Part shown: piece after piece, positions 43,300 through 50,584 of the stretch
Numbering within the stretch: position 1 is the stretch's first letter
Layout of the letters: each line of letters begins with the position of its first letter
Assembly (NCBI GenBank): GCA_009692005.1
Contig: SHZZ01000008.1
Location: 1-64,000 of the forward strand
DNA length: 64,000 nt
From: Gemmataceae bacterium
GTDB taxonomy: Bacteria; Planctomycetota; Planctomycetia; Gemmatales; Gemmataceae
Direction: 5' to 3'
The notes under the pieces: model-generated
What the model saw: only the letters and a program-made list of their open reading frames with translations
Database searches by the model: none
Told to the model about the DNA's origin: nothing
Program-made: the position numbers and the translations under genes

Positions 43300-44544
43300 T
43301 CAGCGAACTAGCAACATGGAGACTTGCATTTTCTTTCCTTCCCGGATCAATTCCAGAGGAACGGATTCACCCACAAGATAATTCTGCCGGATATATTCGA
43401 AAAAACCGTCCACATCCATTTCCAGGGTTTTGTCTTTCACCCCGGTAATGATGTCCCCGCCGCGAATCCCGGCGGCCTTGGCCTGGTCGGAAAGCGAATC
43501 CTTATGGCGAAACGCAAGCTGTGTTGCCGAGATGCCCAAACTTTTTTTCTCATTTACCGTCAAATTGGCCCCATAGATTCCGGGCAACGGCACCAACTTC
43601 TTTTGCGATGGCCTCCAGGATAAATCGGATTTCTTCCAGTCTTTGGCAAATTCCAATTCACTTTGAAAAGATTGGCCATTTCGCTGCCAGGTAATTTTTA
43701 CTTTCCCTTCCTTTGGCGAACGGTCAAGGGCGTACTGAAAATCGGCAAGGGAATGGATCGGCAGCCCATTCATGAAACGGATATCGTCACCCTTGAGAAT
43801 TCCCGCTTTTTGGGCAGGGGACTCGGGGATTACCCGGGCCACCTGATTTCCTTTATCGACATCCAAAACCAAGCCCGCATTTTCCGGGAAGGGGAACCGC
43901 CAGATCATTTCTCTCTCCCATTTTCCTGAACGAACGAGGGAGTGGTTTAAGGCTTCACGCACCTGATGGCAATGCGCGCACCCATTAATTCCCCTTCCGC
44001 GCATTAATTGGGAGTATGAATCCGGAGAATTGACCCTGGGCTCGGCTACTGCAGGGAATGTTTTTTCGTGCATTTTCAGCACCGATTCCATCGTATGGCG
44101 TAGGCCTTTCAGGGAATGGCGTGAATCGGCGCTTGTCGCATCCCGGCTGCCATACCGAGAATAAATCTTGCCTGCGGAGTTCATGAAGAAAAAAGCCAAG
44201 GTCAAATCGTAATCGAAATCGAAAAGGTTTAAATCCAAACCATCGATCCGCGTCAGTCGAACCAGAATAAACTTATTCCCAAGATCTTGTAAGGACTCCA
44301 GTCGGACAACCTGCCCGTCAAAGTCCTGGCAATCCACTCAGGGAACACACCGAATGGCCACCAGCAAAGGCTTGTTGGTTTCTTTTGCAAGTTCCAATCC
44401 CCTTTGTAAACTTCCATGCCAGGTGGGCCGTGGAGATTTCCCTGGTTCTTTCGGTGACTGGCTAAACCCACTTTGGGGTGACAAAATCCACCCGAATATT
44501 ACCAAGCATCCCAAGAATATTTTTTCAGGCACACCTATCTCCAT
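43300..44544 (-). CDS. Exported thioredoxin/PDZ selenoprotein (Sec encoded by UGA at 44338-44340)
   Basis: One frame of 415 sense-or-UGA codons, interrupted only by TGA at 44340-44338. Reading it as Sec gives 414 residues. A signal peptide covers about residues 5-29. A thioredoxin-like domain has the redox motif C-V-P-U-V-D-C with Sec at 69. A CxxCH motif (GCAHCHQ) lies at about 188-194, and two PDZ domains follow at about 220-300 and 330-414, with [12 protein letters not shown] and [10 protein letters not shown]. The alternative start GTG at 44532 has GGAG nearby. I recall a Trx7/PDZ (seleno)protein family name in planctomycete annotation, which fits. Without readthrough only a 68-residue stub, or a headless PDZ protein from the GTG at 44337, would be made. 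It lies 7 bp after the dioxygenase gene and is probably co-transcribed. No Sec machinery is visible in the window. Confidence 0.82.
44293..44326 (-). promoter_or_regulatory. Candidate bacterial SECIS element
   Basis: Starting 12 nt after the UGA. The lower stem GGACT/AGTCC (44326-44322 with 44297-44293) leads through an internal loop to the upper stem CGGGCA/UGUCCG (44317-44312 with 44308-44303, one G-U pair). The apical loop is GGU (44311-44309), 27-29 nt after the UGA. Bacterial SECIS rules ask for an apical loop of 3-14 nt with a G in the first two positions, about 16-37 nt downstream. The E. coli fdhF element also presents GGU at its tip. Confidence 0.75.
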
Positions 44545-45211: not shown

Positions 45212-45586
45212 GAAATCCTCCATATTAAGCCAAGAGCTAAAAAGGATTCTATCATGGCAAGGATTAAAGCACTCTGAAAACTGAGGAACGGTTAAAAAAC
45301 CAGGTAGTGGCAAATCAACAAAAATAATTTTGCAACTCCTTTTTATAGCTCTACCCAAATTAAAAATTCATTAATCAGGAGAAACCAAACTGCGAATCCA
45401 GAGTCTAATAAGTAGTGGGCGATTGTAATCGTTCAATTGGCATGGAATAGGATTCGAAAAAAAATGGTTTGACCTGCGTCACTGGGTCGTCACCAAAGTA
45501 GCCCACCTGATTTTGGCTTTTTGACTGTACCCACCTGTTTTCCTTTGTGATTAAACCATTTAGCAATGGGCCAAGAGGGACTCCCC
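45212..45586. other. Divergent intergenic region, 375 bp
   Basis: It lies between the exported dioxygenase (leftward) and the surface giant (rightward). AT-rich stretches occur near 45330-45380. No coding sequence, hairpin terminator or known riboswitch is visible. The promoters of both genes must be here, but I could not fix hexamers with confidence. Confidence 0.4.
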
Positions 45587-48500
45587 ATGTTGAAAAAAAC
45601 AACGGCGCAATGGTTTCAGAAAAGAAATCATAAAAATCATTCCAAGCCGCTTGTCCTGGAAAAATTGGAAGAGCGGATTGAATGCGCCACGCGGCTTTGG
45701 AATGGCAGCCAAATCCCTTTTGGCAACAATATTGGCCCAGTTTTTGGCGATCCGACCTTTAGTTCAGCATTAAACACTCTGGCAACCAATTGGGATGCCA
45801 CCTTGGGCCAGATACTATTGCCCGTAAATGGCGATGACCTTCTTTTTCCGGATTTAGCAGCCAGTGCCGCGGCATTGGAAACGCCGGTTGCAGGAGTTTT
45901 TGAAAACCTGACTCGACCAGACCCACTGGGCGGTCCGTTGCCAATTCCAATCTCAGTAAATTTGATCAATGACCTCGCGCGGGACAGCAGTGGCAATCTG
46001 CCTGCATATTTGCCCAACGGGACCGCTTCCTTGGATTTTGTCAACCAGGTGGAGATGTCCGGGACGGGTTATTATCTTTACTCAAGGGATTACCCGCAAT
46101 TTGGGCCGGCCAGCGGAATTTTCCCGGGTCCGCAATTGCAGTTTTTCCCCGCCACCGGTTCAGCCTTGCCCTTAAATGTCCGGACACAATGGATTGCCAA
46201 TTACGCCGGCGATTCAACCAGCCTGCCTTCCAACACCAATGCCGATTGGGTGCAAATGCACACACAGGTTGGGGCTGGAAACAGTGATTTCACTTTCAAT
46301 GTGGCTCAGGAAGGATCGTGGTTGGTTTTTTCCAACCGGATAAATGGCGCCACCGATTCCGGATACACGGTCCTTTCCGATGTCAACAACAACAAAATCA
46401 TCAAGCGCGGCTTGGGAACTCTGGTGTTCGATGGAAAAAACTCTTACCAGGGAATTACCTTGGTGGAGAACGGCTTGCTGGTGGTTGCCCACGACCTGGG
46501 CCTGGGTGATGCCAGCGTCAACTCAAATGCCGAGGTTTCCTCAGGGGCAACCCTCCGGCTCAGTTCCTCTGATTATTCCCAAAACGCCATTGGCAATCTC
46601 TTCAACGGGGGCGCACAGGTCAACAACAGGAATCTCGTATTAACCGGAGGTGACGGCTATGCTCCTACTTTGGGAACTGCCGGGATTAGTTTGAATATTC
46701 CCCAAGGCCAATTGGACGGAAAAACCGGTTCAACAACCACGCCAAACCAGTGGAATGGGACAATCACCCTGGTTGCCAACCCGTCCGCGGCTCAAACGCC
46801 GGGCGCGCCAAACCCATTTGGCGACGCTTCCCTCGGCCAACAATTCGGCAGCACAACGGAATTGAACGGGGTCCTCAGCGGCAGCGCCGGCTTAAGAAAA
46901 TGGGGCATGGGCACTGTTGAACTGACCCAGGCCAACACCTTTACAGGCAATCTAGCCATTTACAATGGGTTCCTCAATGGACAGAACAACCTTGCATTTG
47001 GGTCTCTGCAGGGCAATGCCCTGCGAAAGGACATCACCGTCAAGCAAGTTCCGGTGGGCCTGCTTGATCCGGCAAACCCGACACCTCAATTTGGCGCCCT
47101 GACTTTGGGAGACCAAGTCGTGGGAGGCCAAAACCTGGTCTTTGGTCCGCAATACCGGTTGATTGTGCAAGGGGGCAATGGTCCCGACCAGGATCCAGGC
47201 GCGCCCTTTACCGCCACTCAGCGGCTGGAAGGTTTGGGCTCCTTCCAGATTGTTTCCCCAGCCAGCCAGGCGAATACTGCAGATTGGCAAGGGGAAGTGA
47301 TTTTTCAAAACAGCGGTTCGCTAGGAGGCACGCCGGGTGGTACTTTAAAAATATCCGGGGCGGTGACGGCGCCAGCCACGGCCACCGTGGAGAAAAGGGG
47401 ATCCAATACCGCGGTTTTTGCCGCCGCTAACCCCAATTTGCTTGGCAATGTCCTGGTCAGTTCTGGAAATCTTCAACTATCCAATTCTGGCGCATTGATG
47501 AACGCCTCATCCGTCACAGTGACGCAAACTGCGGCTACACCGCCAGCGCTATCCGGGGCTGGATCGATCCAGGTATCGGGTAGCAATCTCACCATCAACA
47601 AACCTGTAACAATTGGGGGCACCGGGTTCACCGGTCTTGGGGCTCTCCAAAGCATTGGCACCAATTCTTGGCAAGGAACGGTGACTTTGTCGCAAACCGC
47701 CTCGCTGGGGGCGGGCGCGGGAAGTGAATTAGCTTTATTGGGGAACCTCATGCAAACGGCGGGGGCAATTTCTTCCAAATCGGTTTTGATAAAAATTGGC
47801 GCCGGAACTGTCCGTATTACCGGGCCAACCACCTTTGGGCTTCCTGTATCCGTTCAGGAAGGCACCTTAGTAATTGAAAATAACACATCCTTGGGAACGA
47901 TTTCGGGAAGTTCGGTGACCGTTTCGACCTCTGGGGGCGCCGGTCCGGCAACCCTGGCTTTGCAAAATAACATAGCCGTTTCTGGTAGGACCCTGAACCT
48001 GGATGGCATCGGGGTGGCCGGGGGCGGGGCATTGCGAAGTTTTTCGGGAAGCAATTCCTGGGCAGGCAATATCACCCTTGCTGGTGCGGGACTAAACGCC
48101 GCCATTGGAGTGGATCAAGGGATTTTGTCTCTAACAGGAAAGATCGATGGCGGTTCAACCACCCTGGAAAAGGTGGGCAGTGGAATTTTGGTAATTGGAG
48201 GTTCGGGAAACTCCCAGGCGCTTTCCTTGGTTTCTTCAGGGACCCTGGTTCAAAACGGCATCGACAATGTCCCCATCACCATTCGAACCGGAGGCGCCTT
48301 GCAAGGATCCGGGCAGGCGGGGGCGGTCACCATTTCTTCGGGCCAATCCGGAATCCTGTCACCTGGGAACGGAGCGAACAACGCGGCTATTTTCACCGTT
48401 GGCAACTTGCAAACAACCGGGTCGAGTGGCGTTTTCCAGGTAGACTTGCTTGGCGAAAGAAATGGCTCTCCCGTGGCTGGAATTGACTTTGATCAGGTGC

Positions 48501-50584
48501 AAGCCAAGGGGCTGGTCTCTTTAGGGGGGAGTCTCTCGATCAATCTTGGGTTTTCTCCAACCAAAGCCGGGACGGTTTACACCATCATTGGAAATGATGG
48601 CAGCGACGCGGTTCAGGGCGCCTTCACGGGGCTTTCTGAAGGGGCGACTGTTTCTGTTAACAGTTATTCCTATGTCATTTCCTACAAGGGTGGAGACGGG
48701 AATGATGTCACCTTGGCAGCGCTCGGAATAGTAACTTCCACCACCATCTCAACATCCGACCCAGACGGCGCCTCCATTTACGGGCAAAACCTGGTGTTTA
48801 CCGCCGCGGTCAATGGCGGCAGCGGGCCAGTGCAAGGAGGGACAGTTCAATTTTTGGATGGCGGCTCCACTCTGGGAGCGCCCGTTACAGTGAGTAACGG
48901 CATCGCGGCTCTTTCCCTTGCGAACTTGCAGGTTTCAGGATCGCCACACCTAATCTCCGCAAAGTTTAACGGCAACGGGGTACTCTCGCCAAACAACTCC
49001 GCCAACTCGCTTTTTCACTCCGTCAGCAAAGCTACTTCGTCGATTCAATTGAGCTCCCCATTTACCTTGTATGGCAACGCCTTGCCTATCACCTTCACCG
49101 CATTGGTCACCCCGCAATTCCCAGGGGGCCCGGCCGGGGGCACGGTGGCTTTCGAAATCGATGGCATCAATCAAAGTCCGCAAACTCTCGACCCAGGCAG
49201 CACCAACAGTAACGGCGCGCGCACCGCTTCACTCAACACCGTTCTTAATGCCTTGGGAACTTACCAGGTAAAGGCCCAATTCTTGGGAGATGGGAATGTC
49301 AATCCTTCGGGGTATTCACAAACCCTTTCCATTACCATTGTTCCGGCCAGCCTCACGACAACGGAATTGGTTTCCTCAGAAAACCCCTCTAGTTTCGGGG
49401 ATACCATTACATTCTCTATCACCACGCGTTCGGTGAACCTCAATGACGGCGTGCCGCTGGGGGATATCGTGTTATTGGATGGTGCCAATCCCATTGCGCC
49501 GACCCAGACCTTGCTCAATGGACAATCCAGTTTCTTTACATCGACCTTGCCGTCGGGGATGCGCACTATAACCGCGAATTACATCGGCGGGCCGAACTCC
49601 GCCGGGACACTTTTCTTTGCTCCCTCGAGTGTTTCAATAACGCAAATTGTAGGGGCTCAAGATAATCTTTTGGTGGTTGGGGCCAACGCCGGGGGCGGCC
49701 CCCAGGTTAATGTTTACAACCGTTTTACCGGGGCCCAAGAAAACTTTTATGCCTTCGATCCGGCATTCCGGGGCGGAGTTCGGGTGGCCACTGGGGATGT
49801 CAATGGCGATGGCGTCCGGGATATTATTGTTGGCGCGGGTCCAGGAGGCGGGCCGAATGTAAGGGTCTTCGATGGCAACAGCAAGGCCATGATCCGCAAT
49901 TTCTTCGCCTATGCCCCGGAGTTTACCAATGGAATTTATGTGGCTTCCGGCGACCTTGACGGCGATGGGTTTGCGGAAATCATGACCGGGGCAGGAAAAG
50001 GCGGTGGGCCGCATATTCAGGTTTTCGATGGCAAGACCGGGGCAACCAGAGCCAGCTTTTTTGCGTATTCACCAGGATTTCGGGGTGGAATAACCTTGGC
50101 GGCGGGGGATTTAACCGGCGATGGCATTGTAGACCTTGTAGTTGGGGCGGGCGAAGGCGGCGGGCCTCATGTGAAGGCCTATAACGGCGCCGCGCTGGCA
50201 GCGGGAAACTTGATTGAAACAGCCAATTTCTTTGCCTTTGACCCGGGAGTAAGGCGAGGGGTTTTTGTCGCCTCTGGAGATTATGACGGCGACGGTTTGG
50301 GTGAAATCGTGGTTTCAGCAGGGCCTGGCGGCGGACCGCATGTCCGCATTTTCCAGGGGAGCGGCACGGGAATTACCGATGAGTTTTTTGCCTACGACTT
50401 GAATTTCGCGGGGGGCGTCACCGTGGGAATGGTGGACAGTGACGGGGATGGGATCATGGATGTTGTCACGGCGCCACTGGAAGGGAGGGCATCAGAAATT
50501 AAACTGTTTTCCCGGCCGCAACAATTGGTTGACACCTTCTTTTCCTTCCCTCCCGCTTTTTTGGGGGGGGCTTTTGTTTCCTAG
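45587..50584 (+). CDS. Giant cell-surface protein: autotransporter-type beta-strand repeats, Ig-like domains, FG-GAP propeller
   Basis: 1665 residues from the ATG at 45587 (AAGAGGG upstream). A basic N-terminus with the motif LVLEKLEERIECATRLW resembles the LExLE-type leader common in planctomycete extracellular proteins; there is no ordinary signal peptide. From about residue 270 to 980 there are at least five copies of the autotransporter-associated beta-strand repeat, such as GTLVFDGKNSYQGITL and AGTVRITGPTTFG. Two to three bacterial Ig-like domains follow (about 1050-1355). The C-terminal 310 residues are five or six FG-GAP blades with calcium loops DVNGDGVRD, DLDGDGFAE, DLTGDGIVD, DYDGDGLGE and DSDGDGIMD. 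A role in adhesion or in the cell surface is inferred. It is a single-gene unit. Confidence 0.88.
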   Translation: MLKKTTAQWFQKRNHKNHSKPLVLEKLEERIECATRLWNGSQIPFGNNIGPVFGDPTFSSALNTLATNWDATLGQILLPVNGDDLLFPDLAASAAALETPVAGVFENLTRPDPLGGPLPIPISVNLINDLARDSSGNLPAYLPNGTASLDFVNQVEMSGTGYYLYSRDYPQFGPASGIFPGPQLQFFPATGSALPLNVRTQWIANYAGDSTSLPSNTNADWVQMHTQVGAGNSDFTFNVAQEGSWLVFSNRINGATDSGYTVLSDVNNNKIIKRGLGTLVFDGKNSYQGITLVENGLLVVAHDLGLGDASVNSNAEVSSGATLRLSSSDYSQNAIGNLFNGGAQVNNRNLVLTGGDGYAPTLGTAGISLNIPQGQLDGKTGSTTTPNQWNGTITLVANPSAAQTPGAPNPFGDASLGQQFGSTTELNGVLSGSAGLRKWGMGTVELTQANTFTGNLAIYNGFLNGQNNLAFGSLQGNALRKDITVKQVPVGLLDPANPTPQFGALTLGDQVVGGQNLVFGPQYRLIVQGGNGPDQDPGAPFTATQRLEGLGSFQIVSPASQANTADWQGEVIFQNSGSLGGTPGGTLKISGAVTAPATATVEKRGSNTAVFAAANPNLLGNVLVSSGNLQLSNSGALMNASSVTVTQTAATPPALSGAGSIQVSGSNLTINKPVTIGGTGFTGLGALQSIGTNSWQGTVTLSQTASLGAGAGSELALLGNLMQTAGAISSKSVLIKIGAGTVRITGPTTFGLPVSVQEGTLVIENNTSLGTISGSSVTVSTSGGAGPATLALQNNIAVSGRTLNLDGIGVAGGGALRSFSGSNSWAGNITLAGAGLNAAIGVDQGILSLTGKIDGGSTTLEKVGSGILVIGGSGNSQALSLVSSGTLVQNGIDNVPITIRTGGALQGSGQAGAVTISSGQSGILSPGNGANNAAIFTVGNLQTTGSSGVFQVDLLGERNGSPVAGIDFDQVQAKGLVSLGGSLSINLGFSPTKAGTVYTIIGNDGSDAVQGAFTGLSEGATVSVNSYSYVISYKGGDGNDVTLAALGIVTSTTISTSDPDGASIYGQNLVFTAAVNGGSGPVQGGTVQFLDGGSTLGAPVTVSNGIAALSLANLQVSGSPHLISAKFNGNGVLSPNNSANSLFHSVSKATSSIQLSSPFTLYGNALPITFTALVTPQFPGGPAGGTVAFEIDGINQSPQTLDPGSTNSNGARTASLNTVLNALGTYQVKAQFLGDGNVNPSGYSQTLSITIVPASLTTTELVSSENPSSFGDTITFSITTRSVNLNDGVPLGDIVLLDGANPIAPTQTLLNGQSSFFTSTLPSGMRTITANYIGGPNSAGTLFFAPSSVSITQIVGAQDNLLVVGANAGGGPQVNVYNRFTGAQENFYAFDPAFRGGVRVATGDVNGDGVRDIIVGAGPGGGPNVRVFDGNSKAMIRNFFAYAPEFTNGIYVASGDLDGDGFAEIMTGAGKGGGPHIQVFDGKTGATRASFFAYSPGFRGGITLAAGDLTGDGIVDLVVGAGEGGGPHVKAYNGAALAAGNLIETANFFAFDPGVRRGVFVASGDYDGDGLGEIVVSAGPGGGPHVRIFQGSGTGITDEFFAYDLNFAGGVTVGMVDSDGDGIMDVVTAPLEGRASEIKLFSRPQQLVDTFFSFPPAFLGGAFVS

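Follow-up and report, generated by a model that had tools for sequence, protein, structure and literature searches.

A predicted selenoprotein of the Trx7/PDZ family in a Gemmataceae bacterium, with a SECIS-type hairpin supported by comparison of relatives

The Trx7/PDZ selenoprotein family gains a member in the genome of a Gemmataceae bacterium; the assignment is well supported, and the SECIS element is proven by comparison with relatives. In the window, i.e., the whole stretch of 64,000 nucleotides of contig SHZZ01000008.1 that was analysed, a minus-strand gene is interrupted by an in-frame UGA at 44340-44338. Judged from sequence, this UGA is almost certainly a selenocysteine (Sec) codon and the product a member of the family described by the model NF041199. 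Sec decoding, the SECIS element, the domain make-up and the exchange of Sec for Cys among relatives are each supported at this level of evidence. The gene and the predicted parts of its product are as follows:

43300..44544, minus strand: Trx7/PDZ selenoprotein gene, 414 amino acids, with predicted Sec at residue 69 and a terminal TGA at 43302-43300
44457..44544, minus strand: signal-peptide-like N-terminal segment of 29 residues, read from the translation
44185..44424, minus strand: Thioredoxin_7 domain, residues 41-120 (Pfam PF13899, 44.6 bits)
44338..44340, minus strand: in-frame UGA, predicted Sec69 of C66-x-x-U69-x-x-C72; the same codon is UGA or Cys in relatives
43966..43980, minus strand: CAHCH motif, residues 189-193, between the thioredoxin and PDZ domains; possible heme c site
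43669..43857, minus strand: PDZ domain 1, residues 230-292 (Pfam PF13180)
43303..43599, minus strand: PDZ domain 2, about residues 316-414 (second Pfam PDZ stretch and match of the structure model to DegQ PDZ1)

When TGA is read as U, the stretch 44544-43303 of the minus strand yields 414 residues, and codon 69 is the sole internal UGA. The initial annotation had described a continuous frame around this codon and, indeed, the frame 44544-43300 is open on either side of it, with no frameshift and 345 codons intact past the UGA. The same annotation placed the UGA at a redox-motif position, C-V-P-UGA-V-D-C, which also holds: the peptide context is R-C-V-P-U-V-D-C, i.e., a C-x-x-U-x-x-C motif, and homologues carry Cys or Sec at residue 69. 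The start codon is ambiguous, being either ATG at 44544 or GTG at 44532, the latter preceded by a GGAGA-like ribosome site. Hydrophobic N-termini similar to that of the window protein are found in nearly all relatives.

Family membership is given by the NCBIfam model NF041199 (trx7_PDZ_seleno), "Trx7/PDZ domain-containing (seleno)protein", an equivalog model with a curated cut-off of 300 bits, which the window protein matches at 423.5 bits over residues 41-410 (profile positions 2-388 of 390); the family name given in the initial annotation was the correct one. Besides this score above the cut-off, the protein has the Thioredoxin_7 and PDZ domains and the CxxU/CxxC motif with Sec/Cys exchange, and the predicted structure agrees. 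The structure model has a mean pLDDT of 89.2 and is confident from about residue 31 onward. Its residues 27-164 match ERp19 (1sen) with a Z of 10.5 and an rmsd of 2.5 over 118 residues, and the thioredoxin-fold matches of this part also include AGR2 and AGR3. The best match of the C-terminal part is DegQ PDZ1 (Z 12.8, rmsd 1.8, 94 residues). The two PDZ domains claimed from the sequence were recovered as Pfam stretches, and the C-terminal part of the model matches PDZ domains of the DegQ type. Matches to HtrA protease structures, where they can be placed, lie on the PDZ domains, and a Pfam scan of the window protein finds no trypsin-like protease domain, so that the similarity is one of PDZ alone.

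The relatives were drawn from 59 genomes, i.e., the source genome plus 58 others from its family, order and class, of which 32 have a family match above the cut-off in a profile search. Among the 45 genes read besides that of the window, the codon corresponding to residue 69 is UGA in 26, spread over 20 other genomes, and TGC or TGT in 19. It is always Cys or Sec; neither a frameshift nor an unrelated residue was seen at this site. A paralogue with Cys at this codon and 35% identity is encoded on contig 31 of the source genome itself. The maximum-likelihood tree groups the window gene in one clade of Sec forms, 24 in all, and shows only three switches between the Sec and Cys labels. A single-protein scan of 84,980 species genomes for close relatives, run with peptide patterns that proved too specific, returned one unrelated PDZ match only.

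All components of the Sec-decoding machinery that the initial annotation proposed to look for are present in the source genome (4.19 Mb in 99 contigs, listed as 100% complete). The selB (360 bits) and selA (554 bits) genes are adjacent on contig 84, selD (351 bits) is on contig 47, and a single tRNA-Sec with anticodon UCA is on contig 72. The selD gene (7588-8517 of contig 47, minus strand; locus L104) carries an in-frame UGA of its own near the start, in the context SCAGUAGK, so selenophosphate synthetase is probably a selenoprotein too, as it is in other bacteria. Across the survey, selA scores above the cut-off in 20 of the 21 genomes with a Sec form versus 3 of the 11 genomes with Cys forms only (Fisher p = 1.3e-4, not corrected for relatedness). 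A related genome pair, G037 and G038, provides the clearest single case of an evolutionary contrast: it has no selA match, its genes have Cys at the site, and the hairpin is eroded to 4 of 7 stem pairs, while the sister genes in G040 and G041 are accompanied by selA and have UGA and the full stem. A match to the tRNA-Sec model in both G037 and G038 (53 bits, 86 bases long) was not counted, since 86 bases appears to be the size of a tRNA-Ser. G017 is an exception in that it has a UGA form (locus L028, contig 172), yet selA and tRNA-Sec are not found in this fragmented draft. Incompleteness of the draft is perhaps the cause; missing contigs, contamination or a gene that is losing its decoder may each account for it.

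The element thought to direct Sec insertion lies just downstream of the UGA:

44301..44319, minus strand: SECIS-type hairpin with upper stem GACGGGC-AGGUU-GUCCGAC and GGU in the loop, from comparative pairing
44292..44327, minus strand: extended lower stem of this gene, with an internal A.A mismatch, from the minimum free energy fold

The loop GGU is located 27-29 nt downstream of the UGA, as the initial annotation had it, and the hairpin it noticed turns out to be a real SECIS-type element, although the window's own copy is a poor example. Indeed, its 7-bp upper stem contains one A.A mismatch, the lower stem being longer instead, and its single-sequence fold is unremarkable (z = -0.62, with 49 of 200 shuffles folding equally well). 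The window sequence alone is therefore unconvincing, and the proof of the hairpin comes from comparing relatives. Across the 27 Sec sequences, the stretch from the UGA to the hairpin aligns without gaps, and a 7-bp stem with an AGGUU-type loop is paired in 180 of 189 cells (95.2%). Synonymous recoding of the same peptides (2000 times) gives 131.5 +/- 3.8 paired cells with a maximum of 145, and because the observed 180 lies above this maximum, the stem is, on these sequences, selected as RNA and no by-product of the protein sequence. One stem pair alternates between G-C, A-U and C-G, and 11 stem cells are changed on both sides, a number reached by 0 of 500 shuffles. In the Cys forms the stem is gone, with 0-4 of the 7 pairs left. 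A covariance model derived from the family places the window hairpin as the sole location in the source genome at E < 1, and this family-specific model finds no further selenoprotein gene there; Rfam has nothing at the hairpin. The variant hairpin, with its mismatch and longer lower stem, is the small difference of the window gene from the NF041199 family. Its nearer relatives on contig 624 of G018 and contig 45 of G033 also have an altered base at the mismatch site and a longer lower stem, and comparably longer stems occur at loci L063 and L070.

A lone in-frame stop in an open frame resembles, at first sight, a nonsense mutation or a sequencing error, which would leave a pseudogene, or else two genes separated by the stop. 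However, the UGA recurs at the same codon in the 26 genes of the 20 other genomes, the hairpin is selected beyond the needs of the peptide with a covarying stem, and the long frame downstream is intact. The UGA common to these genes and the covariation in the stem rule this explanation out, and we regard it as highly improbable. The remark that a chance stop mutation would not be expected to bring such a hairpin is upheld by a stem kept far beyond what the peptide requires. The frame would likewise be open if UGA were reassigned or leaky, e.g., read as Trp, but general reassignment is not an option because the gene's own terminator, in the same frame, is UGA. Moreover, the homologues show Cys and never Trp at the site, and the Sec machinery is complete. 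Since a UGA terminates the gene and homologues use Cys, reassignment is ruled out and its probability is practically negligible.

The Trx7/PDZ family is catalogued as a CxxU family in a 2026 review (PMC13188914), and a 2022 review (PMC9312934) has an entry "PDZ domain-containing protein, pfam13899", with the motif CxxU, that cites the Global Ocean Sampling survey of 2008 (PMC2398784). The survey describes a CxxU selenoprotein under the name "Putative secreted serine protease MucD", which, going by this citation and the shared CxxU motif, appears to be the Trx7/PDZ family; it is named a serine protease there, whereas the window protein is without a protease domain. On this reading, prediction of the family dates back to 2008 (PMC2398784), and the window gene is a new member with the same Thioredoxin_7, CxxU and PDZ make-up as NF041199. 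The thioredoxin-like stretch around Sec also aligns weakly to the VPGUxxT family NF041382/NF041383 (21.8 and 16.2 bits), but this is far under the cut-offs of 350 and 275, and the motif of that family is UxxT as opposed to the CxxU of the window protein.

With UGA 44340-44338 read as Sec, SelB would bind the hairpin just behind it and deliver to the ribosome the Sec-tRNA-Sec that SelA and SelD produce, so that Sec would be inserted at residue 69. The N-terminal signal would export the product, the Cys66-x-x-Sec69 pair of the thioredoxin-like domain would perform thiol/selenol redox chemistry, and client proteins of the cell envelope would probably be bound by their tails at the two C-terminal DegQ-type PDZ domains. 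The signal-like N-terminus together with the thioredoxin and DegQ-type PDZ folds fits an exported, PDZ-targeted thiol/selenol oxidoreductase. A substrate-targeted thiol oxidoreductase, whether disulfide reductase or isomerase, is accordingly a function towards which we lean with caution. Positions 66 and 69 seem to form the essential pair, because the third Cys (C72) is missing from some Sec forms, namely L075 (contig 168 of G004), L095 (contig 146 of G013) and L096 (contig 137 of G018). UGA is found at both positions, as U-x-x-U, in L096:3556-4674 and in L089:5220-6404 (contig 52 of G048), two members that are distant from each other in the tree and that probably carry two Sec residues.

A different role for the Sec protein centres on the CAHCH motif. 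The initial annotation reported a CxxCH; the motif is present and is more exactly a CxHCH with an invariant inner His. All 46 of the 46 sequences, Sec and Cys forms together, have C189, H191, C192 and H193, which makes these four residues better conserved than the third active-site Cys. One can thus envisage that the main work of the protein is electron transfer, in which a c-type heme bound at CxHCH would exchange electrons with the Cys-Sec pair. The family proteins look exported, and the genome encodes a cytochrome c maturation protein of the ResB type, which makes heme attachment possible. PDZ domains and a CXXCH magnetochrome are also combined in the magnetosome proteins MamP and MamE, and the PDZ fold of MamP matches the window model (Z 9.7, rmsd 3.0, 90 residues). 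To our knowledge, however, MamP and MamE have no Trx domain. Against a heme, no Pfam cytochrome match is significant, the best being NapB (E 0.07, in two members), with Paired_CXXCH at E 0.14 and magnetochrome (PF18509) at E 0.18 in one member each. The 46-sequence alignment shows no distal Met or His that is invariant, and CxHCH might just as well be a site for another metal or a second dithiol. Among the structure matches listed, which barely probe this stretch, none is centred on it. Electron transfer through a heme as the main work is, on balance, rather unlikely. The same tentative standing applies to an exported Sec/heme relay for the cell envelope, in which Cys-x-x-Sec and the putative heme would pass electrons while the PDZ domains pick the substrate. 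No heme site is mentioned for the family in the passages searched of the review entries (PMC9312934, PMC13188914) and of the 2008 paper (PMC2398784), and the invariant CxHCH is the first testable biochemical question for the Trx7/PDZ family.

The neighbourhoods of the 46 loci hold no conserved partner gene that would point to a substrate. The most frequent neighbour families, which we take to be DUF1501-like and cytochrome-like surface proteins, occur at no more than 6 of the 46 loci, in scattered positions. In the window, six genes with short gaps run along the minus strand from 45358 to 38464, in the order intradiol dioxygenase-like, selenoprotein, mandelate racemase-like, DHDPS-like, MFS transporter and ceramidase-like. 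Together they resemble a single operon for the degradation of aromatics or sugar acids, a setting in which a redox selenoprotein is unexpected. The intradiol dioxygenase-like gene (45358-44552, minus strand) ends 7 nt ahead of the selenoprotein gene, and relatives of the dioxygenase are found near three Sec loci. On the plus strand, 45566-50584 encodes a large protein of surface type that contains PATR, Ig-like and FG-GAP repeats.
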